A stretch of 64,000 nucleotides of DNA from Onchidella celtica (Eukaryota; Mollusca; Gastropoda; Systellommatophora; Onchidiidae). Both the position numbers and the translations under genes were made by a program. The DNA is taken from contig OZ007575.1 of assembly GCA_963931925.1 (NCBI GenBank), forward strand, positions 39,762,846-39,826,845, given 5' to 3'. Below are positions 5,265 to 62,900 of this stretch, one piece after another; the stretch's first letter is position 1, and every line of letters begins with the position of its first letter. Below the pieces are notes generated by a model. That model saw nothing but the letters and a program-made list of their open reading frames with translations. It ran no database searches and was not told the DNA's origin.

Positions 5265-5787
5265 AACGTTTGGGATAAAAATTTGTTGTTGTTTGTTTTT
5301 TCATTGCAATTTTCTCTTTAGTTTAAACAAACAAAGGGAAAAGCCAGTGTGTAATTTTTAATTTTTTTTTTTAAGAAATCAGCCAGCTGGGCACTTTTGG
5401 CCACAAAGGCTACCCTTACTCTTCTAGATTTCTCTTTTCATTGTGCTGAGGAGCGATGTTCATTGCAACTGCAAGATTCACCACAGTTAACGTAAATGTG
5501 AACAAAAGGCCGGGTAATGACGGTAGGGTACCAACACCAAGCAAACCATGCTTTCAGCATCACTATCATGATCAAATCTTTCAATGAGTGACTTTCCAAC
5601 AAATCAAGACGACGCAGGACTGTCTATGGGCTGACTATGAAATCGATTTGCGGGCCTGCATTTAATTCACAATGACGTAATGAAATTTTGAACGACATCG
5701 CCGCCACTGAAATCAAAATGCCCAACCATACACTGCTACCCGCAGGCGGATTCTGTGAAATAAAAACTTCATAATAATAATAATAAT

Positions 5788-21100: not shown

Positions 21101-24100
21101 AATGCATTCCAGATTTCAACAAAAATTTGATGCCAGTCTAGAAATTTAGTAACACAATGTTTCCTTTTAAATCTCCATATTCCTAACTGAGACTCTCATC
21201 ATTTGTGCACATGCATGTGAACCTTCAATAATTTTATCTAACTCAACTGAGACATCAGTTATTTAAACTTTAAATTGGTAAGAGCACCAATGCTGATCTG
21301 GGATTACCTGGAAATACATATTGTCTTCTATGAGGGAAGTAATAAGATGCGTATTTGTGAATTACTTGTGGTTTTGTATCCTGGTTCATTTCTATTCCTT
21401 GCTGGTGCATTAAAAATTTTTAAGTCCTTTGATATTGTGAGTTTAAACATGCTGAATCTGCCATTTTGCCCCCCTACTTTGGGTAGTTTAAATGTTGTAC
21501 CCTCTGATTCACTTCCCAGACACACAAGGGGAGATAGGCTGGGAGACAGAGTTAAAGAACAATAATTATATCACAGACATTAAAATTGTGTGGTTAATTT
21601 GGGTACAATTTCAGGAAGCTGGTTACATTCCATTTTATCTTTCCACATTGTCACAATTTTTCAGAGAAGCACACCAAAAGAAGATCTAAGAGCTCTTAAA
21701 AATCACTCTAAATGGGTTAGCCTATTATCCTTCTTGCAAAGTTTGAAATACATTCAGAACTGACCACACTTCTCCCTGGCTGACAAGGATTTAGCAAGAT
21801 TCTGAAAACCTGTGGCTGTTGAGCCAGACAGTTTGGGTTAAATTTCATGTGCTTGAACCACAAAGTCGCATCTGCATATTGCACAGCAGATAGCACTCTG
21901 TAAAGCCATAATAACTGATGAACCCATTTTCACCTGGCAATTCATTTTTTTCCCCTCTCTCTCTCACAGTGGTTCATACGCTGCAGATTTGCAGCCGGTC
22001 ACTTGCAGTGATAGTATCTGTCTATTATCCACTGATATCTCTATGTTCTTCAAATGTTATTGGGATATTGCATTAGATTTATTATCAGTTTCTGTGAAGG
22101 ATAAATTGTACATATAAATGAATATTTCCTGAAATCTTCAAATGTCATACCTTGGCTCTCCGAATTTTTTCTGCAGCGGAAAACTTGAGGTGTTTCACAG
22201 GGAAAAATAAACAATGAAAGTATAACAAGAATACCAGGAGTTGAGTTCTTTACAAAGCTGCAAGAAAAAAGCATCAGGATCTCATTGAAGGCACCACAAC
22301 ACATTTTTCAAGTTAAAAGGAACATTTACAAATGACTGTTACTAGGTAGTCCAAACTGATTTTTACTTTTTATCATAACTCACCAGTTACTCTCTAATCT
22401 CATGGAGCTTGCTTTTTCAAGAATTTTAATGCCAAATTGATTATTCTGGCTTAAATGCTTTGAAAGTTATGGCATTTTCAAAAGTGAAAAAACACCCCAA
22501 ATTTGCTACCTTTTGCAAATTGCATGATAGTCCAACTTTTGACCACCCATAAAATAACAGTTCATTGAGTCACGGCATTGAAAATTCTCAGTTTCCAAGT
22601 CAAGGGGGTGTACATTATGCTCAATTTTTTTTTGAGGGGTACAAATATAATACAAACATTTCATTTTACTTTCTTTAATCATCAAACTTCGTCCAACGTC
22701 ACTTTTTTGTGAACTCTTACGGGGAGACAAAAATAATGTTGTTTGATTTAATTGAAAAGGAGGGCAACCATGTTCTGCCATTGACTTAGCACTGAGTGTA
22801 GGACAAAGCTGACGAAACCAAGCATTGGGTGGGTCTATAAACACAATCGGCGCTTCAAGCAGAAACATGCCTCATGTCTGACCTTGTCATACCCTTATAA
22901 TACACAGGCTGAGGTTCATTTGTGTCTAATTTTGATCCTGATCTACTTAAGTTTCCGCCAATTTCTTGGTTAACAAACTTTTCAACAGATGATTTTTAAA
23001 GGAATTTCAACTCAGAACACAATAAAAAATATATTGAATTAAACCTAATTTTTGAGAGAGTTTTTTTGCAAACACATGCACTACTTTGGCGCCATGCTCT
23101 GCGACCCTTATGTTATGAGGGGGTCAAATAAGTATGCATGGCTCAGGGTGAAAATGGCAAGACAAGGTGGTCTAGAGGCAAGGTGCTCGCCTCTCATGCC
23201 AAGGGTCCTGGGTTCTAAACCCGGCCGATGCAGGCATGTTTGGGATTTTTCTATTTTCGTGTCCCTGATCCTATTGGGGGGTAGAATCGAGTACCTAGTC
23301 TTCTCGGATAAGGATGAAAAAATGCGGAGGGCACATTACGCAATTGGCAATTGGAAATCGAAATGAGCAGGCCGTAAAGGCCACTGCCAGGGCAAAATCA
23401 ACTAAAATTCATTCCTACCACTTCCTCCCCCCCCCCCAAAAACCGCCAACCGGCGCTGCACTGTGGCGACGACATGCCTGCTCCAGTTGTAACTGGGTGC
23501 AATGACACAAAGGCAAATTTCCCAAATGGGATTAAAATACTTTACAAATACAAATACAAATACAAAATACAAATACAAATGTCTTGTTCAAGCAATAAAA
23601 ACACACAGCTACACACATTAAACAATACAAAACATAGTATATTTTGACATAGGAAGAATTGAAATTCATTTTGATGTAGGACGCATGCCATTTTACATAA
23701 ATACACAGCAGCAGTGGCTTGTAATGTTAGCCTGAAATTATGCCAAGATGAGATTTCGCCCCTTTAGCGGTGCAGTTTGGACTACCTACTGTTACTCATA
23801 TATATACAAACAACCATGTGAGAAAACAATCAAATTTAGAGAAATCACTGAAAGTTCTCAGATTGATATGACAAACATTCATGTTTGAGTTCAAATAAAA
23901 ATATAGCCTAATATCATTAGCCCAGTTCTTGCTGCTCACTATATATATAGTTATTGCTTTTGTTTTTCTTACCCGTCACAAAGTTTCAATCTTTTTTTTT
24001 TTTTTTTCAAAATGTTATGATTTTACTGTACAATCCAAAAATAATGTCTTTAACCCATTCTCTACGGAATATTTTACCCCGATTTGACGGAACTAATTTT

Positions 24101-27100: not shown

Positions 27101-30100
27101 TCCCCAGTGTGCAAAATCTTTGATCTGAAAAAGTAACTCTGAGCAACTGTTTCCTTCAAAGACACCCCATTTATGAGGGTAGTGTGGCTAAAATTATGAT
27201 GCGGGCTGCCCAATACGTCAATCATATACTTTGGGCCCACATTTCGTTATCGGCAGTCTCCACCCATTCCTCCCCCTTCACTAGTTTTACCGTGCTGTTT
27301 GTGTTATCTACTGTGGTCAGCATCATTCGGTCGTCCTAGACCCAAGATAATACAGATGCAAGATCAGCAGCTAGCCCAGTTTGGTGTTCTGTTCTTAGAG
27401 ATTTTCAACAGGTTCTGACCTGAAAAGTGGGCGGAAGCCTATAGTAAAGGAGACTATTCTGCAGGTTATGTTTTCCAATAAACGTGGACAGGAGGGGTGT
27501 AGAAGGTTCCTCTTTACTGCTGGTTGCTGGCGACATTGATTCTGCATGACCATAGAGTGAGCTACTTCTGCAAAGGGCTTCTGAAACCAAGCTGTACCAG
27601 GTTCTGGTTCAGCCCACTGTATAAGAACCAGCTGCATCAGTTCTAGGTTAATATGTGCTTTCTTGATGGTTCTTCATCCTTATCATTCATCACTATCACA
27701 AAAGGTCCTCATCATCATGATCAGCGTTTTGTTCTTCCACCTCAAGTGTTATTTCTTCCTCATATCTCATTTCTCCCTATTCGGTTACGTCATTTGCATT
27801 GCCCTCTCAAATGTCAAATGTTCTGAAACCAGAAAACTACCAAAATCTTGTTCTGAAGGCACTGTCACCATTCAGTCAGAAACCCACCTCAACAGAATCT
27901 CTAAAAACTATAGTCTGAACATCTTTGAACTGCCAGGGATGGACAAGATGACTGAGGAATGTACAAGATCTTATTACCAATACCACAAGTCACGTCCTAC
28001 CACCTGTAACTGATACTTTAATAACACCTTCCCCATCACAGTGAATGGCACTTTGAGATTAGAACATTTGTAAAAGTATAGGGTTACAGATGACAGAGAT
28101 TCATTGACTGTTTATATTTTTACCCAGGGGCTACAGACAGGAATAAATAGTATAAATCCTTATGTGAGAAATGTGTCGACATTTGTACCCAGGACAGTAT
28201 TAAAAAGTAAACATAAATAAACAAAAGAACATTTCCCAGAACAAAATTCTAATGACACCCAGAGATTGCTGGTTTGTAATTTGAGGAATACAGAAAATTT
28301 AAGGGTTGGGGTGTAATTGTATTAATTTTGGCTGAATTTTGTATAACCCTCTGTTTACATTTGTACCCAGAACGTACGGAAAAGGTTAATATCTTAAATT
28401 TAAAAAATCATAGAAAATCTGTAGGGCCTCAGCAGAACTTGGCATAAAGTTAAAATGTGGTAAAAACAAAAAAAGATGTATTTCACAAAGCCCTACATCA
28501 GGAACAAGCAACAATGTTTAAAAAAAATATAAAATGTATGCTGTAAAAGTTCCAATTTTTTCCCCTTCTGAGATTTATTGTATTTGTATAGTTTTTTGTT
28601 GTTTTTTTTAATTATTTGTTCTGAATGCAAGGCACTGCCAAATACAACCTCTTCTTTTTTTACCACATTTTAACACTCACACTCAATAAATAATCTACAG
28701 TATATAATACAGTGTGATTTTTCTAATGATTCATAATATTATCTTTCTTCACAGTAATGTACAGCTTGAAAAATAGTGCATTTTGGTATTTGAGATTTGA
28801 AAATCTGACCATAAATTAAGAAGTTAGGAATTTTTAAACATTTTTTTTTAACAGAAAATTTTTACTGAATTTCAACTTAGCACACAAACCTGTTTTAACC
28901 TAATGGAACATATTGTCGCTGCAGGATTCTAAACGGCTAACTCGGCTTTTGTAAATTTTACAGGAGAGTGAAAAAACTGAAAAGCAAGGCTATTATACAC
29001 ATTTTGGAGCTGGGAATCGGTGCTGATACTAAAAATATTTCCCATTACATATCCAGGGCTTATTTTATTTATAGGATATGTCATGTGATGTCACTCTTAA
29101 TTTCGGAAAAAAAAACAGCACACTGCATTTTCAGAGTTAGCCGTTTAGAATCCTGCAGCGACGATATATCAACTCACACCTGGATTTCTGAAACTGTCCG
29201 TGACAGAGCAGATACAGACAAGAATTTAAGGACTCTTTGGAATCCAAAACAATTTGTTCCAGTTTATTGAAACTGCCAAAAAATACAATTTTCATCCATA
29301 ATTTTTGGCTGACGCGCAGCTGGGAAGCATTTCGAGGCATTCATAAATTGAAAATTTAGGAACAAAAGTACATCGAATAGAACACAATGCATCCCATAGA
29401 GAGACCAGAGGGTGATGTATGTATAGAGAGATGCTACTGTTGGTTGATTTGCACTACGAGACATGAGAGGCACTGTGAACCAGTCGGTGTAGACAGCTAA
29501 AGTAGGTCACTGTGGGAAGCAATGGCACATATTTATGTATGTTTTCAATAGGAGCAAGAGCCTACTTCATAATATAAACAGAGTAAAATGATAGGTTTTC
29601 AGTTTCATTGAACTCCAACATATCGATGGCTCCATGCTGAAACCGGCTATCTGCTTGACATCAAATTTTACAGGAGAGGCAAAAAACTGTTTTCGCGTTA
29701 AGCGGAACGGTATCTGCTGCTCAGATATCACTAATGTTCCTTTGAATTCAATCCTTTATCAGCCTTACTAATGATTATTGCATTTAATTTAGTCTTTTAA
29801 ATGAGATAGCACATGTCCGGTTTGGTCACTGGAAATGGTCAGCTGCGAAACCGGACATCCAACCTGAAACGTGAATGGCCGGTTTCACCGCTGAGGTTTT
29901 CAGTGCTGAAGTCGGCTAAGTGTATTCTGATGGTTAGTGCTTGATGGCTGATACAATTAAACAATTCTAGTTTTGTTCAATATCATCATACTAGTGTTCT
30001 ATATTAGTTCAATCGTCCACTCACCTGCCCATCCCACCCCCTTTCTTTCTCTCCCCCCCCCCCCCACCACACACACAGGTGTAGATAATATACACTGGGG

Positions 30101-33100
30101 AAAACATTTTTTTAAATTACAATTTTATTTGATAACTTCATTGTTATGAATAACACGATGAAAAGCATTAGTTGTAAGTATTATGATGATGTTCAAGTAT
30201 GAATTGAATGAGCTTGTATGGAAAGAAATTAATGCGGAGTTGAGGCTGACATTGTTCATTAACTTACAAAATAGTAATGATAAATGGCATTGTAAATAGT
30301 GTCACAGGTACGATGATGATAGATCGCGATGGTGATGACGATGACTGTGATGATGACCGCTAAGGACAACGATGATGATGGTGGCGATGATGCTTTTAGG
30401 CACAGTTACACTATTTCCATGTCACAAATATAATGTGTTCTAGAAATCTGCATAAGCACTGGAGACTAGACAACTTCAGAAATAAATGGAATGATTATAA
30501 TGGCGTGATGTTGATGATGCAGATAACTGGTGAAAGCAGAAGAGTGGATGGTGACAAGGTAAAGCGAAGTAGTGTTCATGAAACTGATACTGCATTGAAC
30601 AATTTGGATTACAAATCCCATAATAATAGTAATGAAAGTAATAATGATGATGTAGATGACAATGGGGGGCAATACAGATCAGAAACCTGGATGACGATAG
30701 GAATGAGGAAATGAACGAATGGATGGTTATGATATCTAGTGAGGCAAGTTATCAAAGAATGAATAATGGTCCTTAGGGATGACCGACTTCAGTTCTTCAA
30801 GATGATTGTTTCAAATTTTGGAAGTTGCAATCGTGAGGCTGGCGTGATACAGTCATGGAGGTGTTTGCCCATGGCTTTGAACGGCTTTGTCTCCTCTCGG
30901 AATTGGTAACTCCTGCCATTATTCCCCACAATTCAGCTTAAATTCCGCTTTCCTGTCGGGCGTTTACTTCAAGCACCGTATGTCTGTAACTGTGGGATCT
31001 CCGCCTTTCTTTCCAGGACGGATGGTCTTCAGTGTGCTGACATTGGCAAAGTCATGGAAAAATTGGTGGTCGATATACTTGACTCGATAAGGGCGATGTT
31101 TGAAGCGAGCACCCTCAGTGACTCTCAGATGGTCAGCAGGCACCTATATGGGGACGTTTGCCAGGGCTCGTTCTATGAGAGCATGAACAGAGTCCACCTC
31201 CCATGTGGGTGTGTCCCTTTTGTTAAAACGTTTGCACAATTGTGCTGCCATATTGTGCAGCAAAGTCACGCAGGGCGCCAGCCAACACTGCATTCCGATT
31301 TTGGTAGCTGCAACCATCGCTGTACAGAATGACGGTTGTGTAGCTCAGCTTACTTTGCTGGAAATCGACAGTGCAGCTGCTGAACTCGTTTCCAGTAAGT
31401 CCCACTTCAGATTCATGCCAGAGGTAGCATTGAACATCTTTTGTTGCCAAATCAAAAACTGTAAAATTGTGCGTTGCAAGTTTTGTCTTGTAATAGAGAG
31501 CTAAATCGTGCAGACTTGATGCAAGGAGAATGCATTGTAAGTCCATGGTAACGACACAAATGTCACTTGAGTCTGTGGATTTTCTTTTGTCTTCTTTTTC
31601 TGCTTGGGCCTAGTCTTTTCGGTCCCTATGAATTGTCCATTTGTCCATTGCAACTGTATCTGTCTCATATCCAAAGCAGGTATCACATTGGTCCTTTCTG
31701 GGCTTGTACAATGACAAGTTTCGTGTATGAATTTCCTCAGTGAGGACAGTCTTTGACAAAGGCTTCTACCTCTGATCAGAGCAGGCTGCAAAATAGAGGG
31801 GATACAATTCCTCATAACTGCGAATCCTTGGCTCAAGGTACAGTTTGTTCGTGTCTTTGTGGCAGTAATGCGACGCCACTTTCGCTAGCTGGTCCAGGAA
31901 CAGTCTGTAAAAATGATGTCTTCAGAGCTCCTACTGTAGACTGGATTGTCTGGTCTTCTTTGAGCCAAAGTTTGTCCTTGGCTTTGAGGTTCTAATGGAG
32001 CGGCGATGAACCATTTCGTCAAGCCTGTGGTGTTGAGGAACATTGTTTTGCAAACCGAAACCTTCTCACCGTTTCTTTTCAATGAGAATGCTATTTTTCT
32101 TGATTTTGTAGAGTCTTCCGACCTGCGTCGTTTTGGTTCCTTGGTTTCCAGAAGGCTATTCATGAAGGACTTTTTCTCTCCCCAAGACAGATTCTTGTCT
32201 GTCTTCCTCCGTGAAGGTATCGCAGCCTGTCGTCTTTCCTTTGCATGCACAGGATGGCTTCATGGTTTTTGCTGGTGGATCTGAACAGGCCTGCCATGTC
32301 TCTCGTAGACGTTTATTTACATTCCGCTCTCAGCTGGCCTCGTTTCTTCTTCTCTTCCCTGTCGAGGGGTTCAGTTCTTCATCGGTGCCACATGTGGAGA
32401 TGATGTCAGGTTCATTTATCATGTCGGGCACCTCTTCAGCTTCGCAATCTGGCGGATTTTCAGCCACAGTTTTCACAAGAGATTCTGGTGTAGTCCCATC
32501 TTCCACACTTCGATCTAACTGTGGCGGATTGTTAGGTAGGTCGACATCTTCAACGCCAGATTTGAGGATCCTGTCAGACAGAAGTAGTAAGATGGACGCT
32601 GAAGATGTCGCCAAAACAGGGGATGTTGTCCAGGTGGGTTAGGCGTGCATGTTTAATTTAGTTTAAACATCAAAGAATGAAAAGCGGTACATCAAAGGGC
32701 ATTAATACCTCAGCCATCAAATTAATACACAATACCCGACACAAGTGTAGTGGACAGCAATTATGTTTGCCTACGGCCGGATCCGCCACCTTAGGCAACT
32801 GATAAAACCGAACACGCGTCATGTCACCTGGCGAGAGAAGGATTGGCCGGATTCAGCACGGAGATTTTGGGTGTAGTCAATATGGCCGGATTTTTCATTT
32901 GCCTTTTTGAACACTTTCTGGGCCGCTTTTAAGTGTGCCGTTTTAACTGAAGATGTAACTCAGTAAGGACTACAAAATAATTTTTAAAAAAGGGTATTTC
33001 GAAAAAAAATGTCAGATAGCCGGTTTCAGCACGGAGCCATTGATATGGAGAAACCATAGTATCCTCACACTGACTATAATTAAGATGGTCCTTCCCACAA

Positions 33101-36100
33101 GAAATAAACCATGTGATTTCACATTTCCTTGTGAAGTGCTGACTTCAAACCTGTAGGCCTAAAGACAAGACAACATAAAGATCTAGATATAAATTTCTAA
33201 TGGATTGACATTTGGAGTACATGAATCGACATCAACCCACCTAAATCTAAGTCTTCATATTGTCATACTATTCCGTTGTTGGGATTATGCTACAATGAAG
33301 GCTGTTTGCCTGCCTTGTACTTTATCGCTCTCCTGTGAACTTTTGTGCATTGTAGCCCTTGCTCATGCTGATGATAAGAAAAGTAATGAAGACCTGGGTT
33401 TCTCAAGGCCTCAGCCCAAAGCTATTGGCCCTGTGTTGACAAGATCAGTTGTGAAATCGAATATTAAAACAGATTTAAGACAAGGAAGCACTTGTCACAT
33501 GAATTACTGCGTTGGCAGGCCAAGGTAATGCTTTCTGTAGGCTCCATTATCCTACTCAACCCAGAGATGTGAATGCATAGAAGGGTACTGACTCTGGATA
33601 TATTGTTTCAGCTGCGGTCAACAGTCAACACTGCTTGCAGAGTTGCTGACAGTGAACGCAGAGCCCCTTTTTTTGCAGTTGTCGAAGCTTTTCTCTAAAT
33701 TAGTAAAATAGATGCATCGTCACAATCATCCCAAAATTGCCTAACTTATGTTATGGTGTTTTCTGAAAATCAAAGAAAACTGTTTACTTCGAAAATAGTG
33801 GTAGCTGTTGTTAGGGGAGCATAATATTTTACACAAAAAGCTATAGCTGGACAGTGAAAACAACTCAGTATTTTCTCTTTTTGGCTTTGTAACAAGGTTA
33901 CGCTCACCTAATAACAGTTGGATATATTTAGGCGGATATGAGTTTTCGTTCAAAAACTCATAAGTCAATGAAACAAAACAATGTATTACTGTCAAACGGT
34001 GCAACATGACTATCTGATTAAGGTGAGCATTTTGTCTCAAAACACCAAAAATGTTTGAAGAGCTAGGTAAAAAATACTGTCTAATACATATTCCCATTAG
34101 ATTTAATTGTGAATGTGAGTATGACTGCGAGTTTAATTAAAGTCAGTTCAAAAAGTGAAAGTTTTAATGTGAAACTTTTTACCCAGATTATGGCTCCATT
34201 CCTATTAAAATATGGCAATAAACTTATACGGGAAAAGTTTTCTTATTAAAGCTCTAAATCAGCTGAGGTGACACCAAAAAAAAAAATTAAGATGGATTTA
34301 CTGAAGAATTAGTCCAATATGTTGCAGAACAACAGCAATGCAAGTTCTCTGCTCTGCTGCTCATATTTATTGCAATGACCTCCTTTTGGCTCCACTGACC
34401 TAGTTTCACTTTTAAAATGACATGATTCCTCTTTATACAGCCATACTCTCTGGTGAGTTTTTTCTTTAGGCATAGCTCTCCAATAGAAAAAAAAAATACG
34501 GTAATACCCATTTACAAAGATAAGTGATGGCTTACTTTGCACAACAGCTAACATTATATATTACACACAAATGCTATTTACTTAATCCAGCTCATTTGCA
34601 ACACCACAAAGCATACACCCATGTACACCCACAGTAGTGTTCATTTATAATAATATAGTCAACAGTCTTTCAAAATTTTCTACCTAGTTAACAAAGAAGG
34701 AAACAATGAGTTAAGTCATATAAATTTTTATTACAATATACCGACAACGTAAGTTATAGTAACTTATAGTGATGAGTCAAATTTGACTTTATTTGTCCAT
34801 TTTCCTGCACTCTCCTCAGTTTTCTACAACTTCAGATGCACACTTTGTGGAACTGATCAAGAGATAAATCTGATAAATTAGTTAACTGCTTGGGGCTCCA
34901 ACAAATTTCTTCAATTATAGGTGCCTCGTAATTCTCGATTTGACTCACTGACCTACATTAGCATATGAAGTCACCGACTTATATTCCAAAGAACTAGTTC
35001 TCCTCAGACAGTACAGAAAATGGTAACTCACGTGTCTGCTTGCCCTTGCATGACCAGATTGGTGGATGAACCCGTTAGGGAAGCAGTGCCACCGAGTCCT
35101 GCAGCGTAACATACACACAAACTCAAGGCAACACATAAATGTCGAAAATCTTCACTGGGATAGCGCTTGTTGCTCTTATCAGATCTGAAATTTACACAGT
35201 TGCATTCTACTTGATGGGGAACTATATTATCATTCCCTAATTTCCTTTGGCTAATAACCTAAAAATTGAACACCCCCCCCCCCCCCTTCCTCAGCCACAC
35301 CGCAACATAACAAAGAAATCATCAACGATAATCTGGTACTTATAGGACTTTTAAAAGACCTTTGAACTTATCTTGAAAATTTAAGAACTTTTAAAGCCTT
35401 AAAATTAAGGCCCTCTAGGAAATTTAAGGACAGCCTGGAACCCTGCTAAGAGGTGTTTTCCTATAAAAAAAACTGCAGTGGTATTGAGGCCACACAAGTG
35501 CACATGCAATGTCTTTGATGGTAGTGCACACAGCAGGCCTCATTGATCATCTGATTTCAGACAAAATATTATGGGGTAACAAGCCAGCTGGATGATGATG
35601 GATGAAACTAATCATCGGGTGAGAAAGGAGGAAGTATATCACAAAACATCAACAATAACAGTAACACGAGGTAAAATCAAATATTATGTTGCTTCAATTT
35701 AGACAGCATTTTTTTAAGAACGGTTTACATTCCCATAACACTAACCATAAATTATCTACTTCTACAAATGTCAGCATTCTAATTTAGTATTCTGGCACGA
35801 CATACTGCAACAGCTGTTCTCCCTAGTCCCACATGCTGCAATTTTTCAATGAGAGTGGAACAGATGCCTCTCTGTTTGCACATAAATCAGATTAAGCTGA
35901 AACAGATTACTGGACAAAATCTTGGTTTACTCCTTTCTAATTTGCTTCAATGATACTTACATCTTCGCCTCTTGTTTTCCATTATGTAATGCATGTTCAT
36001 GTTTTCCTTTCTCAGTGAGTATCACATCTGAGAAAGTGAATGATTTTAAAAGAGGAAGAAAATTCTAGCAAAGCAACAAAGACAACTCTACAAGACAACT

Positions 36101-39100
36101 GAATTTGAGTTTGGAGAAGTTTGGAGAAATCATATCAACATATATGGGTTCTTGTATGGGTTTTTGTATTCCTAATCTTTTTGGTACAAGTAATTTGTAA
36201 TAAATAAATGCCAGCATCAACTAAGAACACATGTTTTTCTATTGTGTATCCTAAAGAAATTACTAAGAACCCACTATACACACCTACAATAGCCACTCGT
36301 TCCTCTCACATTATATATAAACACGCAGAGTTTCATGACCAATCTACACAGCCATCCCTGCACCTACACAAACCCAAGTTTCTGTTCAGGTTCCTTTCAA
36401 TCTGAAGTGGTGCATTTTAAACATTCCATCAATAATTTTAGATATAGGTAGTTGATCAGGAAAGTTTTATTTTTTTTTAACTTCGTTTGACTATCAGTTT
36501 CGACCATTCACTTTTGTGTCCATCACTGACCTTTACCATCGCTATGCCTTTCAGTCCCATGCATTCAATTTGGTGAACCTTTCCCTGAATGTACATGGGA
36601 AAGTGAATTTGACAGACACTAAATTTGGTGCAATTTCTCTGCCAAGAAAGGAATCTCTTGTACCTAATTTTTTATGCAGATTTCTTTTGCACTAAAGTGA
36701 TGCTTTTTGTTTTTTTACCATTTGCTGAATATAATCATGTGCAATACACCCTCCCTCCCCTAAACTGCACATCATTTTTCAAACATTGTGTCACCACTGT
36801 TTTTATACATGCAAAACATGGTGAATAAGTTACAAATTTAATGGACATAATAACAAATGCATCTGACAGGGCATATTTACAACTACAAGAAGTCCTACAA
36901 ATGACTGTGTTTGTGTTTAAGAGAGGTGAAATGATGAGAAAATTGTTTATTAGCCACTAAAGAATCATTTGAAAATTGAATGCACCACAAAATGAATAGA
37001 ATTAGAATGGCTATAGTCCATAAATCTTGCTTTCCACCAACTTATGGCAGATTTTTATAAAACCTTACTGTTAATATGTTATTTATAATTTTATAAATTT
37101 GCGACACTTACACAATGTTTAGGCACTCGTCTGTAATTGAGAGTACAGTCCCTTGTGCAGACAACCGGAATAAACAGGACACCTTGAAATCTGTTCTACA
37201 CTCTCGTTCATCTACATGTCTAATTAACATGGTGGCAGTCAGTTAAGTACATTCACTGAATGAATGATTGAACCCTACCTCCCGAGTTCGAACTCATCGC
37301 GGAATGAAATTGAGCGAATGTGGAACTGAAATGAACTTTCCTGGACGCCACACGCTCAAACACAAAAAAGCAATCGAAGGGAGACAACTCAAGAATACAT
37401 TCAAGAACCCTCAAGCAAACCACTCTTACCCCCCTTGGCGTGACCTAGTCCAAGTTGAAACCTCAAACTAATTGCAACATAGCATGTGTTGTCATTCATG
37501 AAGATCCAGTAAATGTGCAACAACAAAATTGTATCACCTCGAACTAGTCGCAACAGAATGCAATTGACACAACTCGCAATGAACAATCCACCACTACAAG
37601 TTTGAAAACGTAGCAACAAAACTGAAACATACTCACAGTCACACAGTGGGCCCTGTTACTGTTAGTGCCACTGTTTCTCAAATCTCTTGGTCAATCGGCC
37701 CCGCTAGTGCCCTGTTGATCAAATCTAATAATCAGTCGGCCCTGTTAGTGCCACTGTTATCAGTTCGTCATCATTCACTAAATTTGGAGTGAAACAACCA
37801 TCATGGCTGAGGCAAATTTTCGTCTGCCTCCGTCCTTAGAAATCAATGAAGGCAATGTTGCCGAGAATTTTCGTAAATGGAAACGCCATTTCGACATTTA
37901 CATGACAGCTTCAGGTGTTTCTGAAAAGGATGACATAAGGAAAGCTGCAACTATCCTTCATATTGCTGGTCATACGGCTGTTGAAGTCGTCGACCAACTT
38001 CCTTTTGAGAAAGAAGAAGACAGGCAAAATCCTGGGAAAATCCTCCAAAAGTTAGAAGAATACTGTAACCCCAAAACAAATGAAGTACTACAGTCATATC
38101 GTTTCTGGAACACTCCCATCAGTGTTCCATTTGATTCATTTGTAACAGAATTGAGAGCTCGAGCAAACTCATGCAATTTCAAAGACAAAGACAGGATGTT
38201 GAGAGACAAAATAGTGTTTACTGTTGAGAAAAAGTTGCAGGAACGCCTCTTAAGAGAAGTAGAGTTAGACCTCAACAAGACAATTCAAATTTGTCGAGCA
38301 GTGGAGCAATCAACATTACATGTCCAGGAAATGAACACAACCTCTCAAGAAAGGAAGATTGAGGCTGTTAGCCAGCCACCGAGACAGTCATCATCAAAGC
38401 AAAAACCAATCATGTTGGCAAACTGCAGATATTGTGGCAAAAGCCACCCTAGACAAAAGGAACTATGCCCAGCGTGGGGAAAAACATGCTCAGCCTGCAA
38501 AGGAAGAAATCATTTTCGAGCAAAATGTATCAAAATAAATCTGTGCCTTTCAGAAACCTGTGGAAGTACAGAAACAATGGAGACACAAGAAGAAGAGTCT
38601 ACGAGTACAGCATGGCTTTTTGCAGTAGACAACGATAAATCAAAGAACAACAGGATAACAGCTCAATTCAAGATTAACAACCACAACATTCGTTTCCTTG
38701 TCGACACCGGAGCAGATGTGAACATAATCTGCGAGAAATTTGTCAAAAAAGAACAAATTGAGAAGACAGACCATACTCTGGTCATGTGGAACAACACAAA
38801 GTTGTTGCCAATGGGCAAAGCAGAACTAGAAGTTGAAAACATCAGAACAGGACAAAAGAAGAAACTAGAGTTCACTGTAGTAGAAAACAATCTTATGTGT
38901 TTGTTGGGTACAAAAGCTTGTGAAGAATTCAAGATACTTTCTGTGCACAGAGATAGATTTATCAATGTTACCGAATCACACCCACCTCAACAAACCAGTA
39001 GAAAATTGCAAACCAAAGACAAACCAAAATTGGGAAGCCTGGGCTATGCCAAACTACATGTAGACCAAGATGCCAAACCTGTCGCCCTGCCATGCAGAAA

Positions 39101-42100
39101 CGTGCCTTTTGCTTTAAAGGACAAAGTCAAAGAAGAGCTAAATCAATTAGTGGAAAGAAACATTCTCATTCCAGTGGAGGAACCCAGTGCTTGGGTCAAT
39201 CAGATGGTAGTGGTTGAAAAAGCAGACAAGAAACTCAGAATTTGCATTGACCCACAACCTTTAAATAAGGCGCTCAAAAGAGAACATTACAAACTACCAA
39301 CTTTAGAGGACACTCTGCCTCTTTTTGAAAATGCAAAAGTTTTCTCAAAGCTAGATGTAAAAGATGCATTCTGGCATGTGTGTCTAGATTATGAGTCCAG
39401 CATGCTCACTACAATGATCACCCCGTTTGGACGTTTCAGGTGGGCACGGCTTCCTTTTGGATTAAATGTTTCCACAGAAATATTTCAAAAGAAACTGATG
39501 CAGGCACTGGAAGGCTTGCCTGGCTGCATAAATGTTGCTGATGACATAGTCATTGTTGGCAGAGGATCAACACAAGAAGTGGCCAATGTCGATCATGATG
39601 AAAATTTACACAGGTTGAGAGAGAGGTGCTCTGAGAAAAACATTGTGCTTAACGAAGGCAAATCCCACATCAAGCAAGGGGAAATCACTTTCATGGGACA
39701 CCGCATTGGTGTAGATGGAATCAAACCAGACCCCCAGAAAGTATCTTCAATCACACATATGGCACCCCCAAAAGATGCTCAGGAAGTACGCAGATTCTGC
39801 GGCATGATTCAATACCTAGCAAGATTCCTGCCCAACCTATCCGAGAAACTGGCACCAATAAGAAATTTGGTGAAGAAAAATACTGACTTTCATTGGAGCG
39901 GAGAGTGTCAAGATGCGTTCAATGAAGTCAAAGAACTGATAGTTGATACACCTGTGCTGAAATATTTTGACCCCAAACAAGAACTGCAAGTTCAAGTGGA
40001 CAGTAGCAAATCCGGTCTTGGCTGTGTATTAATGCAAAATGGACAGCCAATCGAATTCGCCTCAAGAGCGCTCACCACCTCAGAACAAAGGTGGGCACAA
40101 ATTGAAAAAGAAATGTTGGCTGTGGTATTTGGACTGGAACGTTTCAACCAATATACTTATGGAAGAGAAGTAACAATAATAAATGACCACAAACCATTGC
40201 TATCCATCATTGACAAACCACTGAATCAAGCTCCGCCACGACTTCAACGGTTGCTTATGAGGAGCAACAAATATCATTTCAAATTTCAATGGCTTCAAGG
40301 AGAAAAGCTCATCCTCGCAGATTTCCTCTCACGACACTACCTCAAAAATGACACTGAGGAAGCGGATGTAAATGATGACATAGCCACAATCTCTTTCATA
40401 ACAGTGCCCATTTCTGACCTAATGCTAGATAGATTTGCTGAAGAGAGCAAGCGAGATAGAACATTGCAAAGACTGAAAACAGCCATCATTGAAGGATGGC
40501 CTGAGTCAAAAAGTGAAGTTCCTTCCGAAATACTCCCATATTTCCAAATAAAGGACTGTCTGTCAGTAGAAAATGATCTAATTCTCAAAGGCAAACAAAT
40601 AATTGTCCCTTTTACTTTGAGACATGAAATGAAAACCAGACTTCATGCAGCTCACCTGGCATATGATAGTATGGTAAGAAGGGCAAGAGATGCAATTTAT
40701 TGGCCTAACATGAACTCTGAAATCAAGCAAATGGCCGAAAACTGTGAAAGCTGCCAAGCAATTAAACCTTCGAACTGCAAGGAAAACCTACAACAGCATG
40801 GAGAAGGAAGTGAACCATGGACCAAAATTGCCAGATTTGTTTGAAATCAAAGGGCGAGTATACCAAGTAGTCACAGACTATTTCTCCAATTTCATCGAGG
40901 TAGACTACCTGCCCACCACAACAACTTCCATGATAGTCACAAAACTGAAAGGCCATTTTGCCAGATATGGAATACCAAAATGTGTTGTTACGGATTCTGG
41001 ACCGCAATATTCCTCTCGTGAGTTCAGTAATTTCGCACAAAGATGGGGTTTTCAACACATCAAATCCGACCCTGGACATCATCAAGCTAACGGGAAGGCG
41101 GAGGCATCAGTAAAAATCATAAAGAAAATGATGTGGAAGGCTGTAGAAGAAGGAGCAGATCAGTATGAGGCATTGCTGGAACTTCGCAACACACCACGTC
41201 AAGGTTTCACAATGAGCCCTGCAAGAATCCTAATGGGAAGAAACATTAGGACAATGATACCCCCAATAGCAGAGAACAAAGAAAAGAACAGAAGAAACCC
41301 AGACGTTGTCGAAGAACTACAGAAGCATAAAATGACAATCAAGAAATGTTTCAATAAAAGAGCTCACGAGCTACCACCCATTTGCACAAACTCCCCAGTG
41401 TACTACCAAAACCCTGAAAGGAAAAAGTGGGAAAGTGGTATAATAACGGCAGCTCCAAAAGACAGTTCCAAATCATACCAGATCACTGGAGAAAATGGAG
41501 GACACTTTGTGAGAAACAGAGTACACATCAGACACAAGAGAACACCATTCTCACCCCAAGTACCAACAGAGGTGTACACAGAACCGAACCCAGACCGAAC
41601 ATCAAATGATACTCCCTCAGTGACACAGACACCATCGGAAAATAACCCAATGGCAATGGAACCTAGAAGGTCAACCAGGGAGCGCTTCAGACCAAATTGG
41701 ATGAAAGACTTTGTTCGCTAAAACTATAACAGTTTCCACCTGCAATGACAAATTTACTTTTGTTCTGTGTTAGTGTTAATTTAAATTACATTGTTGTTTG
41801 TTTTTTTTTTACTAATCTCATCAAAGTATGATGTGAACGACTCTTCATTTCAACACTCATTACATATTACACATTACACATAATTCACAGAATTGTTTAT
41901 CCTGAGAAAAGAAGATGTTAATATGTTATTTATAATTTTATAAATTTGCGACACTTACACAATGTTTAGGCACTCGTCTGTAATTGAGAGTACAGTCCCT
42001 TGTGCAGACAACCGGAATAAACAGGACACCTTGAAATCTGTTCTACACTCTCGTTCATCTACATGTCTAATTAACACTTACTGTTGGATTTCAATGAACT

Positions 42101-45100
42101 TTTGCATGTGCTTTTAATTTGTTACGGACGTTAGCTCGAAAAATATCACAAATAAAAATATTTCTTTCTTTAACCTTTGCCAATTATCAAGATATGGGCC
42201 AAAACAAGCCATGTTAGATTTTACAGCACACAGATGTGGGGTAAATGAGTGTGAAAATTGTCCGAGAGATAAAATAAATGTTGTTCAGGCATCTTGCTCT
42301 CAATACTGTCCATAAATATCCATCCTTTGTCAACTGTAAGGTGTGCGTTTACCCAGGAATTGTCTGGGCAGATATAATATAGTATTCCTGCTGACGTTTT
42401 CTGCAAATTTGTCTGTAGATATTTGGCTCTTGCTGTAATGGGGTGAGGTTTCTCTCATGAAATGTTTCATCCACTGGTTGATTTACTGCAAAGTGAATTC
42501 TATTTCACTCACAGTTCGTCGCTTCCATGACAAACTGTCTTATCGCGCAAAATCTACTTTCGAGCTGGAGCAGTTTAATGTTTCTGTCGAGTCACCTGCA
42601 TGATTCAGCTCACTCTACCTCTCGATATAAACGTGCAAATGCACAGTAATATACATCAATCTAAAGCTTGTTTTCTTGCCTACAAAATGCTACTAAGTTT
42701 GATATTTATTTTTGTTTGCAGTTTTTCTCAAATGTTGTCAATTCATGGCAACCCCTCCGACAGGACAGTTCGTCATAAAACAAACCACTCGGGACTGGGT
42801 CGATAAGACACCTGAGCGAGGTTAGGACAGTTCGTCATGGAGTGAAGTGGCCAGGCTATGGTGGTTGACCAATGGTAAAATTCACTTCAAACAAGCTTTT
42901 TGTTACAGCCCATATTTATTTTCATTAATTTCATTAAATGTTAAGCCTGTTTGTTCGCCATCAGTCGTTTTGCGTTTCATGTGTGTTTACAGATTGATAC
43001 AAAAGCTCATATTAAGAGAGGGATCAAATCGAAACAGAGAAAGAACAATGTTATTGTTCATTGAAAAAGATTTCTATTTCATCTTAAATTTGACATCAAA
43101 ATTTCAAACATAAAAAATTTTCAAAACTTACCCAAAAAAAATCAGTTTCTCTTTTTATCAAGAAAAATATCTCTCTATCTCTCATTCATTCTCGCTCTCC
43201 TTATCTCTTTCTCTCTCTCACTCATTCTTGCTCTCTTTCTCACTCTCTCCCTTTCTCCCCTCTCTCTCATCTTCTCAGTTGTGGTGGGTTGTTTTTTTTT
43301 TGCTGTCCACTCCCTCCCTCCCTCACTCATTCATTCACTAACTCACTCACTCACTCACAAAAACACACTCACGCACACACATACAACGTTTAACATAAAG
43401 GTGGGTACCTAGAAGTACTAAATCATTGTAAAGTATTATAAGCACGAGCACAAACGCACTTTGTAGCCCTTATAGGAGAATGGAAGTTTTATAATTAATG
43501 TCTAAAGGGCTGATTTTGATAGAATGCCTTATGATCTGGGTGAAAATTCACTGGGGTTCTACCTTGACACAGAGTCATTAGATCTCCATACTTCCCCGCT
43601 GAGAGCTTTGGCTGTTCCTTGTAGGCATTAGAAGTACCTGCTCATTGCTTGTTAGCCTTTTATTCATGGTGATGGAACCGCAATCTTGTTCAAGGTGTGA
43701 GTTTTTGAAAGAGATCTTATGTGGTTCAGATTTTAATACCTCAATGTGCATAATATTTGTCCACTTCGTACTGTTCCCATTGTCAGATGGCCTGACGCGC
43801 AGAATTCCCGAAGTTCCAGCCAAAGTCTTCCAGTCAGAGATGTCACTGGTTGCAAGTTCTAGGACTGGGTAGGGTGACTTTTTTCCTGACATTCTGATGA
43901 TGCTCACAAGCTCTGCAGGCATCATAATTTTGGGAATCTTTCTCAGTGTTCATTCAACTACACTATGCATTGAGTCACCTGGGTTTGGCCATGGTTGCTT
44001 TCGAAATAACGATGCGATATTTGTTGCAGGGAAGTTGTCTTGAGGACGTTTCTGAACTTCGATGGCAGAATAGAATTTTCATTTTGTCTCGCACATCCGT
44101 CCGAGAACAACATAACATTGGTCATGCCTCGTGAATCGAGACTTCTTAAAAACTTTTCCATGCACCTGGCAATTTCATTGGCACCATGCGCTGCTTAACC
44201 CTCGTGCCAGAAATAGCAATGATCTTGCTTGTTAGACGTCTCGAAGATAGTGAAGCTATAAGAAGCGAAACGTCGTTTGTAGAAGAGCTCACCCCTCTGC
44301 GATTTGGGCAGATAGGGGACTTTTTCTAAATCAAAACAGCAGTAACCATGTTAGCATTGCTTTCAGACTCTTTGGTGCAAGCTTTTAAGATATTTCGAAC
44401 TTCATCGTTTTCTCCGATATGTTTTGTGTCCTGCCGAATGAATTCCTCGTCTTGAGGATTGTCTTCATACTTTGTTTCACACAAACTGCATGTTTTTTTG
44501 GGCAAATGGAACCGAAGATTCTTCTCTTGGAAAATTTTGTGGTATAAAGAATAACTGACAGGGATGTTGTTTCCATGAACGGCCTTGTAGAGTTCAAAAA
44601 TTTTTGTCACTGTGAGATCTGGGGCTAAATATTCCAGACACGTGGAAGCTCTGCAGTAGTGTGACTCCATTCATGAGAATCTGTTAATGTGCGCTTCCAC
44701 TGCTTTTCTCTTTTGGTTGTCACAGACTTTATTGTTCTGTGTCCTTCCACCTCTTTTCTCACTTTTCAATACACCATACTCATTAATTTTCTTAAAAACT
44801 GACTTAAGAAACAATGTGGAGACTCCAGTGGTGTTTAGGAACATTGTCTGACACACCATAGTGTTCTTGCCTTCATGCGGTAACAAGTAGGTAAATAGTC
44901 TTTTTCCTTTTTTGCGGAGTTCCGTCTTCATGAGCTTCAGAACTGACACACTGGATATGCCGAGCAACCCAGTTCCTTTGCTGGTGAAGATCACCGAGAT
45001 CCAAAAAAGCTGTAAGAATGTTTAGCCTCGTATTGTCAGTGTCCGATTATGATAAGACTGTTTGTCAAACAATGAATAACTAGCCCATCTGGGCGCGGCT

Positions 45101-48100
45101 CGCTGACGAAGAGTCTTATCTGGATAGGACAGTTCGTTATGAAACAAAAGTAACCAAAGTTGCGATAGGACAGTACGGTCATTTTGATTTTTACAAAAAC
45201 TAACATATATTTGACAAAATCCTTTATAGGACATTTAGATCAAAATTCTGCAAAAACCCGAAAATGCTAGTTTTAGCGATAAGACAGTTTGTCATGGAAG
45301 CGACGAGTTTTCCGAAGCATTTGTTTAGATGTGTGCTCATGTATAAAGTTGTGTCTCTCACTTTGATTCTTAGCTTTCTCAGGAATTCTTGCTTTTGAAA
45401 GAATCCCTGGATGATATGATGCAAAATATCTTTGTTAAAACTGTCTAATTTCTTGCTCTTAGCCTTCTTACAGAAATTTTCACCATTTTCGTTCAATCAC
45501 CATGGGACATGTCCTTTGTCATCCCAAGTGCGTGCTAAATCACTTACCACGATTTTGAGTTCTACGATACAGAAAACCATACCTGATCTCTTTGTAAAAA
45601 ACTTCATTAAAATGCAATGCTACATTTTTAGCTCCACAAATTAGCATTTAAGAGACATTTGATTGAACTTAGATCAGAGGTAAAGATAATATTTTTATAC
45701 ATTACAATGATTTTTGCATTTGTATTTTGTGTATTCCTTAATCCTATTTGGGAAATTTTGCCTTAGTGTCATTGCAGCCCAGTTACAACTGTAGCAGGCG
45801 CATTTTGGGGGGGTGGGGATTAGTTTTTTTTAAAAATACTAATAAAGCAGAAGATATCATTATTATGGATACAGCCCAGAAAAAAAACATTTTTTTTCAC
45901 TTGTGCGGGCAAAGACATGAGGTGTAAACAAATTACAACTCGCATGTATAGGTTTAACCAATAGTTAAAAAAAGGACTTTCCATTTTTTTTTTCTGTTTG
46001 CATACTGTAAGTTTACATATGTTTTACTTGAAGAAACTATTGCGTATTTCACTAATCGTAAAAAAGATTTCTAACTGAGTCACTGCCTGATTTGGAAAAA
46101 TATTATTCCTAAAAGACTATGACAATGTAAAAGCTTGTGCAAAATGGAAATCCAACACAGAGTTTTTGTGAAAACTGATAATATTAACCCTCGTCCTGCG
46201 TTGAGTGAACTCGTCCACGTACTCGTCAACTCCAGGACGCAATAACAACAATTATAGTGGTGGATGAATCATAAGGGATCCCTATGGTATTTGGATAAAG
46301 TACTTGTGATGATATGCAGTAGATTTTATTGTGAAATGGAAGGCCCCAAATCAAGAATTTTCTGCATTTACATGCCGTTTAGCATGTTTTATCATGTTCC
46401 CAAGACCTTTGCGCTTTTTCTGTCCCTATGTCAGGCCATTCAGGTGAACAAATTATTTTTTAAGCCATTCGCTTAATTTACTAACCACATGTATCGTGAC
46501 ATTGCCTTCTCCCTCCTCTACTATGTAAAGCGTTCACTTACTTACTTACTATAATGTTAGTTTTAGCGAGAGATTTGATTTCCAGTTCCAGGTCGTAGAG
46601 CACATACATGTACTGAAAAGCGGTTTAATCAAAGGAACACAGTATCTCTCTAATTACCACATCAAATAAAGACAACGACCAACAACAAAGTCGGTCATTT
46701 TCTCCCAGTTTTCCCTGATGAAAAACCTACTGACAGACGCCTTTATGCAGCATGCCCTAACATTACATCGGAATTCATAATTACAGACGTAGAACGGCGT
46801 CTCAAATACGCACATGGCCCCTTTCTTCTCATTTCACATGTAGACGACAACCAGCATCAAAGTAAAAGTTTCCCCAACATTTTCCCCAGTTCAAACTTCA
46901 GACCGTCAGTACTATTACACGAGTATGACGAATAGTTGCATCGTAATAAACGTAATCGGACGATACCATTTTGTTAGATATAGTAGGGGTGACAGGGTAG
47001 ATAAACACGCGAAAATAGTGTGGAAAAAAAAACATGAAAAAACAACGACGACAGCCTTGGCAACCGAATAACCAAAGCGCGAGGCGCACCGTTGCTATAC
47101 AAAAATGTGGCCTCCCGCAGGACCCGCGGTTAAGCGTATCGGACAAAATAACGGCCTCCCGTGTCTCGCGGGGAGGCCAATATAGTGGCCTCCCGCAGGA
47201 CTAGGGTTAACAATGCTGAGCACAGCAATAATTACAGACTTTATATACAAACCAGCGTGGAAGAGAAAAGAGGAAGTGGTATTACACTGCACAGAATAAA
47301 GGAGATACCAGTGAAGAACATCAATGTGGGAGGTCAAGAGCATGAGACTGAGGGTGTCATGGGAATACATCATCATTTATCCCTCAAAACCAATACAAGA
47401 AATACCTCTTTCAGTCAATTTTTGCTGGGATATTTCTATTTCATGTAGCTGATCTAAGACAGCTATTATTACAGGCACCATCATTGCAGTAGCTGACGTG
47501 TTGTTCACCCACATCGACAAGAACCAAGTTGGTAGCATGAAGCCCAACATTAACCTGGCAAATGCAGAAATGGAAACATAAAACACAAACTGAAGATATA
47601 TTATTTTGTCAATATCAGTTTCTGACGATAACTATTTATTATGTGTATAAAAATACACATGAAAGCAAACAGAGAAAGATACAGAAGTCTGTTTTTGCCT
47701 TCTGCAATTTGTCTCAGTAAGACATAATAGTTAATAGCTAGATGCGTGCCATATTTAACTAAGATTCTTTACCCTGCTACTTTATGTAATATGCCTGTTA
47801 TTGAGTTATAATCTATTTATGTAATGATTCATAATCTGTGTACCATGTATGTGCTCTTAAATGCTCTGTAAAAAAGAATTTCCCTCATGAGATAACAAAG
47901 TGACTTATCTTATCTTATTGCAAATTTTGACCATTTTTTGGGGTTAACAGCTTAACAATTATCACTGAAATGTATTCTGTAAACATTTAGAATCTGAGTT
48001 AGTCAGGCTGCCAATACTGTGACAAGATATAAACACACCGCCCCAAATAATCCATGTTTGTATTTGAACAAATAAATATCATATCTAAAATCAAAGATTT

Positions 48101-59900: not shown

Positions 59901-62900
59901 CCTGTGCAGTGCTTCAGCTGACTTCTTCTCTAGATCAGCCCTTCGTGTATTCACTACCCACTTCTTGCATCTGAAGAAGGAATTACAACATGCCTTGCCA
60001 CAAAGATGTCATGCTCAATCTAAAGGATAACATCTTCTTTTTCTCCATTGTATAGGCATCCACTATGCTTCCTTTTCAGCCCAACTTGCATAACAGATCC
60101 GAAAGACACTCCAGAATTTTAACCATAGTCATGCATACATTAAAAACCTGCCAATTACAATTAATCTTTCAATCTAACAATAATTTTAAAACAACCAAAG
60201 CGTTACAATTTACAAGAATAAAATAGTTGTTTTTTAAAAGTACATTCAAAGTGATCAAGGGTACCTTAATTTTAAATAGATGCCAATGCATTACAATCCG
60301 TGACCAACACTTGACTTTTTTAATAGTTCGTCCATCAGGTATGATGATGACCTTAACAACACCAGAGGAAAAAGGAACAGAAATTGTTGAGAATTTCAAC
60401 ACATGGACAATAAAGAGAACTAAAGGACACAGAGGACAGAATGGAAAGACTGTTCTTTCATGACTTATGGCTTCTCATGTGACTGATAAGTCCTATTTTT
60501 GCCCTGCAGACCCTTCCGCATAAATGACAAGAGTACTCCGTTGGTTCAGTACCACTGGGCCTTTTCTTGCGCCGTTCTTTTTTTTTGATAGCCTGCTGGA
60601 CTCTGTCAGCTTCCCATGCTTTGCTGCCTCTGGTAAGGGCCGCCCTCCAATTTGCACGATCAAACGAGAGCTTTTCCCACTCACTCACATCAATGGCAAA
60701 GGCCTTCAGTGATTGCTTGAGAGTGTCTTTGTAACATCTCTTTGGGGCCCCAACATTCCTCGTTCCATTGGAGAGCTCAGAGAAGAAGATTTGCTTAGGG
60801 AGTCTGGAGTCGGGCATTCTGACAACATGTCCTGCCCAACGTAGCTGAATTTTTTTCAGGTGGCCGAAGATGCTCAATTCCTTGGCACGATTGAGGACCT
60901 CAGTGTCTGGAATTTTATCCTGCCATTTGATCCTTAGGATCTTTCTAAGGCAGGCCAGATGAAAGTGATTTAGCTTTCTGGCATGCGAGTGGTACACTGT
61001 CCAGGTTTCAGCCCCATAGAGTAGGGTGGGAAGGACCACAGCATTGTACACTTTCAGCTTAGTGTCTGTGCGAATGCCGGCAACATCCCATACTCTCTTT
61101 CGAAGCCTGCCAAATGCAGAGCTGGCTTTGCTGATTCTTGAGAGAATTTCAGTATCAACACGAGCCGCGGAAGACAGTGTACTGCCAAGATAGGTGAAGT
61201 TCTCCGACACCTTCAGAAAACTGTCATGGACTTTGATATTTGGGGTCACAGGATACTTGTCGTCTGGAGTAGGCTGATGGAGCACTTCCGTCTTCTTTGT
61301 GCTTATTGTGAGGCCAAAGTTGTCACAGGCACTAGAGAACTTATCAACACAGTTTTGCATGCTATCCTCATCGTGTGCCAGAAGTGCACAATCATCAAAT
61401 ACTGTCTAAATACTGTTAAACAAGTGTAAACAAATTGTAAACTTGACAATAATATTGTAACAAATTGGACAATAAATGTATGCTGACTAAACACTTTTTC
61501 TTTTAAATAAAAGCCATGTAAACGTTTATTACCTGACTGGGTCTAATGGAAAGGTGAAAAATGATAAATCTGGTCATTTGTTCTTTGAATTAGTACAGTG
61601 TGTGTTCTTAGCGCTCGCCATTGTTACAACTACCGAGAATAAAGACTTGTCTTCTATTACCGCCGTTACATGGATGCCTGATCCAGATATGCAGATTCAG
61701 CCATAGTTACCTGTCTCGTTATATAAGGTCTCTGGTTTTATGGAATGTTTTGACATTAACTGTGTCATGGGTGTCATTTTTAGCCGAAATTGTATTTCAG
61801 AGCAACATTTTTACTTTGGAATCTTGATTACTATATCAATCGGAGTACCAATACACATATCAACTTGTGTACCAAAAAATTTTTATTTAGAATAAAGAAA
61901 AGTTAGACTGATGTTGTGAGTGTCTTTCGTATTGTATTTTTTATGTGTGTGTCTGGTCTTGTTTAAAGTTGTCTCCAATAGAAATCTCAGTCACTATGTT
62001 TTTTTGGTATTTAATCAGTAATATTGATACTGTTTTATGTCAATAATGGTGTTTGTCTGGCATATTACATTGAGCAAATTTTTATTATTTATTAAAATTC
62101 TGCTAAATGTTCTTGAAACATGGAGTGTATTTTCTGTCATTTTCAGGTTTTTTTACTTCACTTTTATGACTTTCATGTGAAGTTTTTCAGGAGAAAAAGG
62201 AGAGATTGTTATGTTTTTGGGGACACTGCTGACACAACTCTCATCTCAGCTGGCACTCCCCCCCCCCCCCCCCCCCCCAGAACTGTAGCTGGGAGTTTGT
62301 ACCTACCAAATCGTGTTCCAATGGACAGCAGGGGCCATTATTTTCTTTTTTATGAACTTTCCATTTCCACAATAAACAGTATAATGTCACTTTTTTCAAC
62401 TATACCTTCTGTATCTTCTTCGCGTTATATAAGTATTTGTTTAGATTTTGTCCATATTTTTCCTTCATTTCACTTTGTCTGGTAAATTTAGACTCCTTTA
62501 GTAGTGATATTGGTTTAAATCTGATGATATATAGCGGCAGTGAGCTTCAGTACTATGTGAAATGCACGTTTTTCTCTATTCTACTTCACTCATCACCTAA
62601 GGCATCACAAGTAAGGGCTTTTTTCAATTTGAAATTTGGTGTTCTGGGAGGTAATCCCTCCTGGCACATTTTTCCCAACAACATAAGAGCCTCCTGATTG
62701 AAGTCATATTTTCAGAAGTCTGAGATAATAAGCTTTAAAATGATATCAAATATATGTATGTTTTAAGCAATTTGAAAAATGCCAAAATCACAGGTTTCAA
62801 AGGAAATCTTTGAAAACCTGGACTGTTTTTCCCCATACCTTTAGTCCACCATTTAACTGTTGCTCATTTTCCCTCAAATACAGAAGTCAGAAAGCACTGC

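Follow-up and report, generated by a model that had tools for sequence, protein, structure and literature searches.

Evidence for dead cut-and-paste DNA transposons with DUF7869-related transposases and 4-bp target-site duplications in Onchidella celtica

Results

Three elements and their ends

We analysed a stretch of 64,000 nucleotides from the gastropod Onchidella celtica (contig OZ007575.1, positions 39,762,846 to 39,826,845), hereafter the window. It holds three elements, E1, E2 and E3, that have terminal inverted repeats (TIRs) and 4-bp flanking repeats, and the two larger ones carry the remnant of a gene for a DUF7869-related transposase. Very likely, all three are cut-and-paste DNA transposons with such a transposase, present as copies that are dead and non-autonomous. 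Their features are listed below (TSD, target-site duplication; MITE, miniature inverted-repeat transposable element).

28914..29163, + strand: E1, 250-bp non-autonomous element (MITE), TIR of about 30 bp
28910..28913, unstranded: E1 left TSD ATAT, from end alignment; exact in 15/20 of the family
29164..29167, unstranded: E1 right TSD ATAT, from end alignment
28953..28979, + strand: E1 left subterminal block AAATTTTACAGGAGAGNNAAAAAACTG, from repeat comparison and shuffle test
29624..33042, + strand: E2, 3419-bp element; its transposase gene, on the minus strand, is broken
29620..29623, unstranded: E2 left TSD ATAT, from end alignment; exact in 24/26 of the family
33043..33046, unstranded: E2 right TSD ATAT, from end alignment
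29663..29689, + strand: E2 left subterminal block, at an offset identical to that of the E1 block
30739..32314, - strand: E2 transposase remnant, DUF7869-related, with stops and frame shifts; aligned to protein P0001
42517..45305, + strand: E3, 2789-bp element; its transposase gene, on the minus strand, is broken
42513..42516, unstranded: E3 left TSD AGTT, from end alignment; exact in 20/23 of the family
45306..45309, unstranded: E3 right TSD AGTT, from end alignment
42764-42776 and 42826-42838, + strand: two E3 subterminal repeats of the TIR core GACAGTTYGTCAT, from pattern matches
43513..44922, - strand: E3 transposase remnant, DUF7869-related; aligned to protein P0127
45128..45140, + strand: E3 right subterminal repeat of the TIR core, 1 mismatch

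The TIRs were found by aligning the left end of each element with the reverse complement of its right end, and their identity is 29/30 bp in E1, 28/30 in E2 and 30/30 in E3. An earlier note on this DNA, made from the sequence alone, had placed the three elements at exactly these coordinates and with these flanks. Its further claim that the ends start with CGNNG needs some qualification. The elements do start with CGTCG (E1 and E3) or CGATG (E2), but single changes in the window copies have left TGTCG at the left end of E1 and CAATG at the right end of E2. Because of these changes, a search of the window for paired CGNNG ends next to 4-bp repeats recovered E3 alone.

Target-site duplications across the genome

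Judged from the window alone, AGTT is a target duplication for E3. ATAT reads the same on both strands, so that the duplications of E1 and E2 could belong to the inverted repeat. We therefore turned to other copies in the same genome (1.14 Gb, 43 contigs), sampling 28 E2, 30 E3 and 20 E1 loci by similarity to the window copy, with the window E2 and E3 themselves counted in their sets. For E1, 40 places were scored of 242 candidates; these include the window copy, and the others are nearly full-length, with 94-97% identity. Both ends were recognised in 69 copies (26 E2, 23 E3 and 20 E1), and loci without both ends were omitted (L002 and L052 for E2; L013, L016, L017, L018, L019, L022 and L023 for E3).

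An exact 4-bp duplication flanks 59 of these 69 copies (E1 15/20, E2 24/26, E3 20/23), which bears out the length given in the earlier note, whereas matches at 3, 5, 6, 7 and 8 bp, the kind of outcome that the note had named as telling against it, number 0 in all three families. Matches at 2 bp (21 E2, 1 E3 and 7 E1) arise because ATAT is AT repeated. The exact duplications of E2 are ATAT (21), AAAT/ATTT (2) and ATAA/TTAT (1); those of E1 are ATAT (7), AAAT (4), ATAA (3) and ATTA (1). After collapsing the strands, E3 has seven kinds: AAAT (9), AATT (3), AGAT (3), AAGT (2), AACT (1), AATA (1) and ATAT (1). The pattern AWWT accounts for 11/15 exact duplications in E1, 23/24 in E2 and 13/20 in E3, and is thus preferred but not strict. 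When the 4-mers of different copies were paired, chance agreement was 76/506 for E3, 66/380 for E1 and 465/650 for E2. The E2 level is high because ATAT dominates, and the evidence for this family therefore lies in its three non-ATAT copies. The non-ATAT duplications in genome copies settle the ambiguity that the palindromic ATAT creates for E1 and E2.

These data also bear on whether the elements might be of Zator type or belong to a superfamily specific for TTAA (Kolobok or piggyBac), with all of which they have short duplications and DDE/D transposases in common. Zator gives a 3-bp duplication, the length at which no match was seen in the E1, E2 or E3 family. Kolobok and piggyBac resemble our elements in the 4-bp length of the duplication as well, but are described as TTAA-specific in the available part of PMC9587614, and TTAA is found in 0 of the 59 exact duplications. 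We consider any of these assignments extremely improbable.

Transposase gene and predicted fold

E2 and E3 each contain one minus-strand gene interrupted by stops and frame shifts. As the earlier note had seen, both belong to the same broken transposase family, and the motif SDGCxxQN reads SDGCSYQN in E2 and SDGCARQN in E3. Searches with the read-through proteins returned 295 proteins for E2 (120 of them listed) and 34 for E3. Among the matches listed, all relatives named by organism are animals, and many had already been tagged PF25273 (DUF7869); those of the E2 protein include the molluscs Plakobranchus, Patella, Gigantopelta and Mytilus, and also insects and one fish. The curated Pfam cut-off for DUF7869 was passed by 7 of the 13 relatives scanned, with relatives of both E2 and E3 among them. 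In the genome of O. celtica, 150 places were scored above this cut-off, out of 306 candidates, and the domain was found in none of 14 named control genomes. Scans of viral contigs and prokaryotic genome contigs with alignment A1 likewise gave no relative. Separately, we observed more repeated open-frame DUF7869 families in the O. celtica genome, of 1014, 841, 859, 769 and 491 amino acids (aa).

Pieces of the transposase family are present in 28/28 E2 and 30/30 E3 loci, and in all copies trimmed to their ends they lie inside those ends (26/26 for E2, 23/23 for E3). The protein family is thus tied to defined inverted repeats and a 4-bp target, as the earlier note had proposed, and none of its fragments fell outside the TIR pair in these copies.

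Models of relatives predict a DDE/D RNase-H-like fold, the outcome of the structure prediction that had been suggested as a check. A sequence-profile search of the PDB gave 4 matches only, all at chance level, so that the tie to solved transposases comes from fold comparison alone. Across the 154 listed homologs, the alignment shows Asp at the first two positions of the triad in 153/153. A third Asp, mostly about 40 residues past the second, is present in 150/150 ungapped homologs.

Conceivably, unrelated transposons have captured a gene for the DUF7869-related protein between their ends as a passenger, and something else moves these transposons. There is a precedent for such capture in the Sola2-Fanzor chimeras mentioned in part of PMC3627910. 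Nevertheless, the same protein family lies inside E2, E3 and a third family with an 834-aa frame (described below) despite their different TIRs, and the predicted fold of the protein is itself of the DDE/D transposase type. In addition, the open-frame list has no frame longer than 158 aa in E2 or E3. We regard passenger capture as very unlikely.

A relative with an open frame

The genome search with P0001 gave 77 matches, with 70 places scored of 1956 candidates, and in 11 equal-scoring rows there is a stop-free frame of 834 aa. This relative lends further support to the link between protein and ends. One copy of the 834-aa element, C18, extends from 9770600 to 9775421 (4822 bp), with AAAT at both flanks and the terminal repeats CGTGGGCGACG. 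The left ends of the 11 copies picked by gene are mutually identical, each following a 4-mer of A and T only, and right-side pieces of 91 bp are identical among 10 of them. A left-end pattern that required such an AT-only 4-mer found 25 left ends, and the right flank was taken for 20. The left and right 4-mers agree in 20/20, three of them non-ATAT, and C18 makes 21; these 20 copies were chosen by their ends, with the open frame checked in part only.

An inner inverted repeat (GCGACG...) was rejected as the right end of this family, since 10 other copies continue unchanged beyond it and the true end lies farther out. The C18 element (L080; positions 9774582, 9774800 and 9775257) has an inner inverted copy of the TIR region about 164 bp inside its right end, with a 30-mer occurring twice.

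How the ends are related

The earlier note had called the three elements related, which holds for E1 and E2 through a shared block and for E2 and E3 through the transposase, but not for the ends of E3. The 27-bp block common to E1 and E2 lies at offset 40-66 from the left end and matches at 25/27 positions, a score reached in 0/2000 shuffles; the 834-aa family has the same block at an equal distance from its own left end. A 16-bp core of the block is unchanged in 27/28 E2 loci, 14/20 E1 loci and L079. It occurs in 2/30 E3 loci, both times outside the element. Retention of the block while the TIRs differ suggests that it may be a functional site. By sequence, E1 is a short non-autonomous element close to E2.

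E3 shares its first seven bases with E1. Beyond these, its ends are no more similar to those of E1 or E2 than shuffled sequences are, and it is without the block. Instead, the TIR core of E3 recurs within each end; the window has 5 matches to it, the two TIRs among them, where 0.2 would be expected.

Possible spread of copies after gene loss

Aligned with P0001, the E2 copies have one stop common to 21/25 and another common to 18/22; in E3 copies aligned with P0127, one stop is common to 21/23. The mean pairwise difference is 7.1% in E2, 3.5% in E3 and 4.5% in E1. Based on the shared stops, the sequences suggest that the E2 and E3 families multiplied after the death of the gene, moved by intact relatives, although this impression may be inflated by the selection of loci for similarity to the window copy. 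Two longer E3 relatives, L013 and L016, have nearly whole frames; their right ends were not found within the stretch examined.

We also noted E3 copies of about 2.6 kb that have an internal deletion (E3 1-2015 joined to 2201-2789). This subfamily accounts for 16 of the 30 sampled E3 loci (L021, L023-L031 and L033-L038), the right part being short in L023.

Neighbourhood of the elements

Between E2 and E3, at 37069-42076, lies a long terminal repeat (LTR) retrotransposon whose two 161-bp LTRs (TG...CA) are identical and which has a 5-bp duplication, CTTAC. Its long open frames (37782-40844 and 40714-41721) are gag-pol-like as judged by eye, and it is a recent insertion. Toward both ends of the window there is a direct repeat of 822 bp with 98% identity (5784-6605 and 60321-61142), with an extra 70-bp match beside each copy. 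An inverted pair of about 87 bp (87% identity) is found at 23476-23560 and 45713-45799, the latter some 400 bp to the right of E3.

Discussion

Based on these data, we propose that a DUF7869-related transposase with an RNase-H-like catalytic domain, its acidic triad most plausibly being D-x(73-83)-D-x(about 40)-D, would bind the ends of about 30 bp together with putative subterminal sites. The enzyme would then excise the element and join it to an AT-rich target with a 4-bp stagger, the repair of which would produce the 4-bp duplication. The target preference would be for ATAT in E2 and the open-frame family, and for a looser AWWT overall. E1, E2 and E3 themselves might have been moved in trans. 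The ends, the duplications, the transposase pieces between the ends and the open-frame relative support this scheme by direct data, and the fold supports it by prediction.

Several observations weigh against this interpretation. Ten of the 69 copies are without an exact duplication; three of the five E1 misses are off by one base, and two of the three E3 misses, L031 and L032, have unusual right ends, where the cut position may be wrong. Sampling favoured likeness to the window copy, and the 2 E2 and 7 E3 loci without both ends went uncounted. The window E2 and E3 read-throughs themselves gave no match to the DUF7869 model, and 6 of the 13 relatives scanned scored below its cut-off. As for the triad, a Glu two residues upstream of the third Asp is conserved in 146/150 homologs, so that DDE is possible. 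However, this position is replaced by Pro or Ser in four distant members, and the Glu (P0020 434) was rejected as the third catalytic residue for that reason, Asp 436 being present without exception. On sequence conservation, the third acidic residue is probably Asp, making the triad DDD. Finally, a weak conflict concerns the superfamily Sola, to which the group probably belongs (see below). A bivalve study that used Sola hidden Markov models detected Sola in none of its molluscs other than bivalves, according to part of PMC10294476, whereas the limpet Patella and Gigantopelta both have members of the family described here. The conflict is weak because neither of the two is named in the main text of that study.

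DUF7869-related proteins are transposases, with catalysis predicted from the modelled fold. The kind of mobile element is ordinary, and the gain lies in annotation. Insect, mollusc, fish and echinoderm gene sets contain proteins called 'uncharacterized' or 'DUF7869 domain-containing' that can now be connected to elements with defined ends and a target footprint, and annotators can regard their genes as belonging to transposons. A family with many open-frame copies is a candidate for a transposition assay, and its ends make the question of Sola membership testable.

Relation to known transposon superfamilies

The Pfam entry PF25273 (DUF7869) is matched by relatives of both E2 and E3 and not by the window copies, and it is an entry without a function. 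Tc1/mariner elements (Mos1, SETMAR) duplicate TA, as stated for mariner in part of PMC10741241. The elements described here duplicate 4 bp, with E3 kinds that include AGAT, AAGT and AACT, and the PDB search gave no credible sequence match.

The elements might represent an undescribed DDD/E superfamily of animal DNA transposons, similar to Sola only in duplication length and triad. Such a superfamily would be marked by CGNNG ends, an AWWT-preferring 4-bp target and, in one branch, a left subterminal block outliving TIR change. Its DDD enzyme would have no large insertion separating the last strand from the third acidic helix. This idea is supported by the observation that the CGNNG ends and the left subterminal block do not appear in the parts of the Sola descriptions examined. 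Furthermore, none of the papers searched names DUF7869, and those containing the QN motif strings deal, by title, with subjects other than transposases. On the other hand, a family so frequent among named animal proteins would hardly be absent from Repbase, and its main features agree with published Sola as set out below. An undescribed superfamily therefore seems unlikely, and less likely than Sola.

We thus consider that the group probably belongs to Sola, with Sola2 the nearest branch, on the basis of features compared with Sola by description only. The earlier note had raised a Sola-type superfamily as one possibility; duplication, TIR length and size favour it. In the available part of PMC10741241, Sola elements are characterised by a DDD triad and duplicate 4 bp; their TIRs measure 11-1124 bp, and most of the elements are 2-9 kb long. 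Our elements share the 4-bp duplication, have TIRs of about 30 bp in E1-E3 and measure 3.4 kb (E2), 2.8 kb (E3) and 4.8 kb (the C18 copy). As to the triad, Asp is the more probable third residue (150/150), but a Glu two residues before it is nearly as conserved (146/150). The likeness to Sola2 extends to the target itself: dictyostelid Sola2 elements make AWWT duplications such as ATAT, AAAT and ATTT (PMC3627910, in part), and AT-rich AWWT duplications are those preferred in O. celtica.

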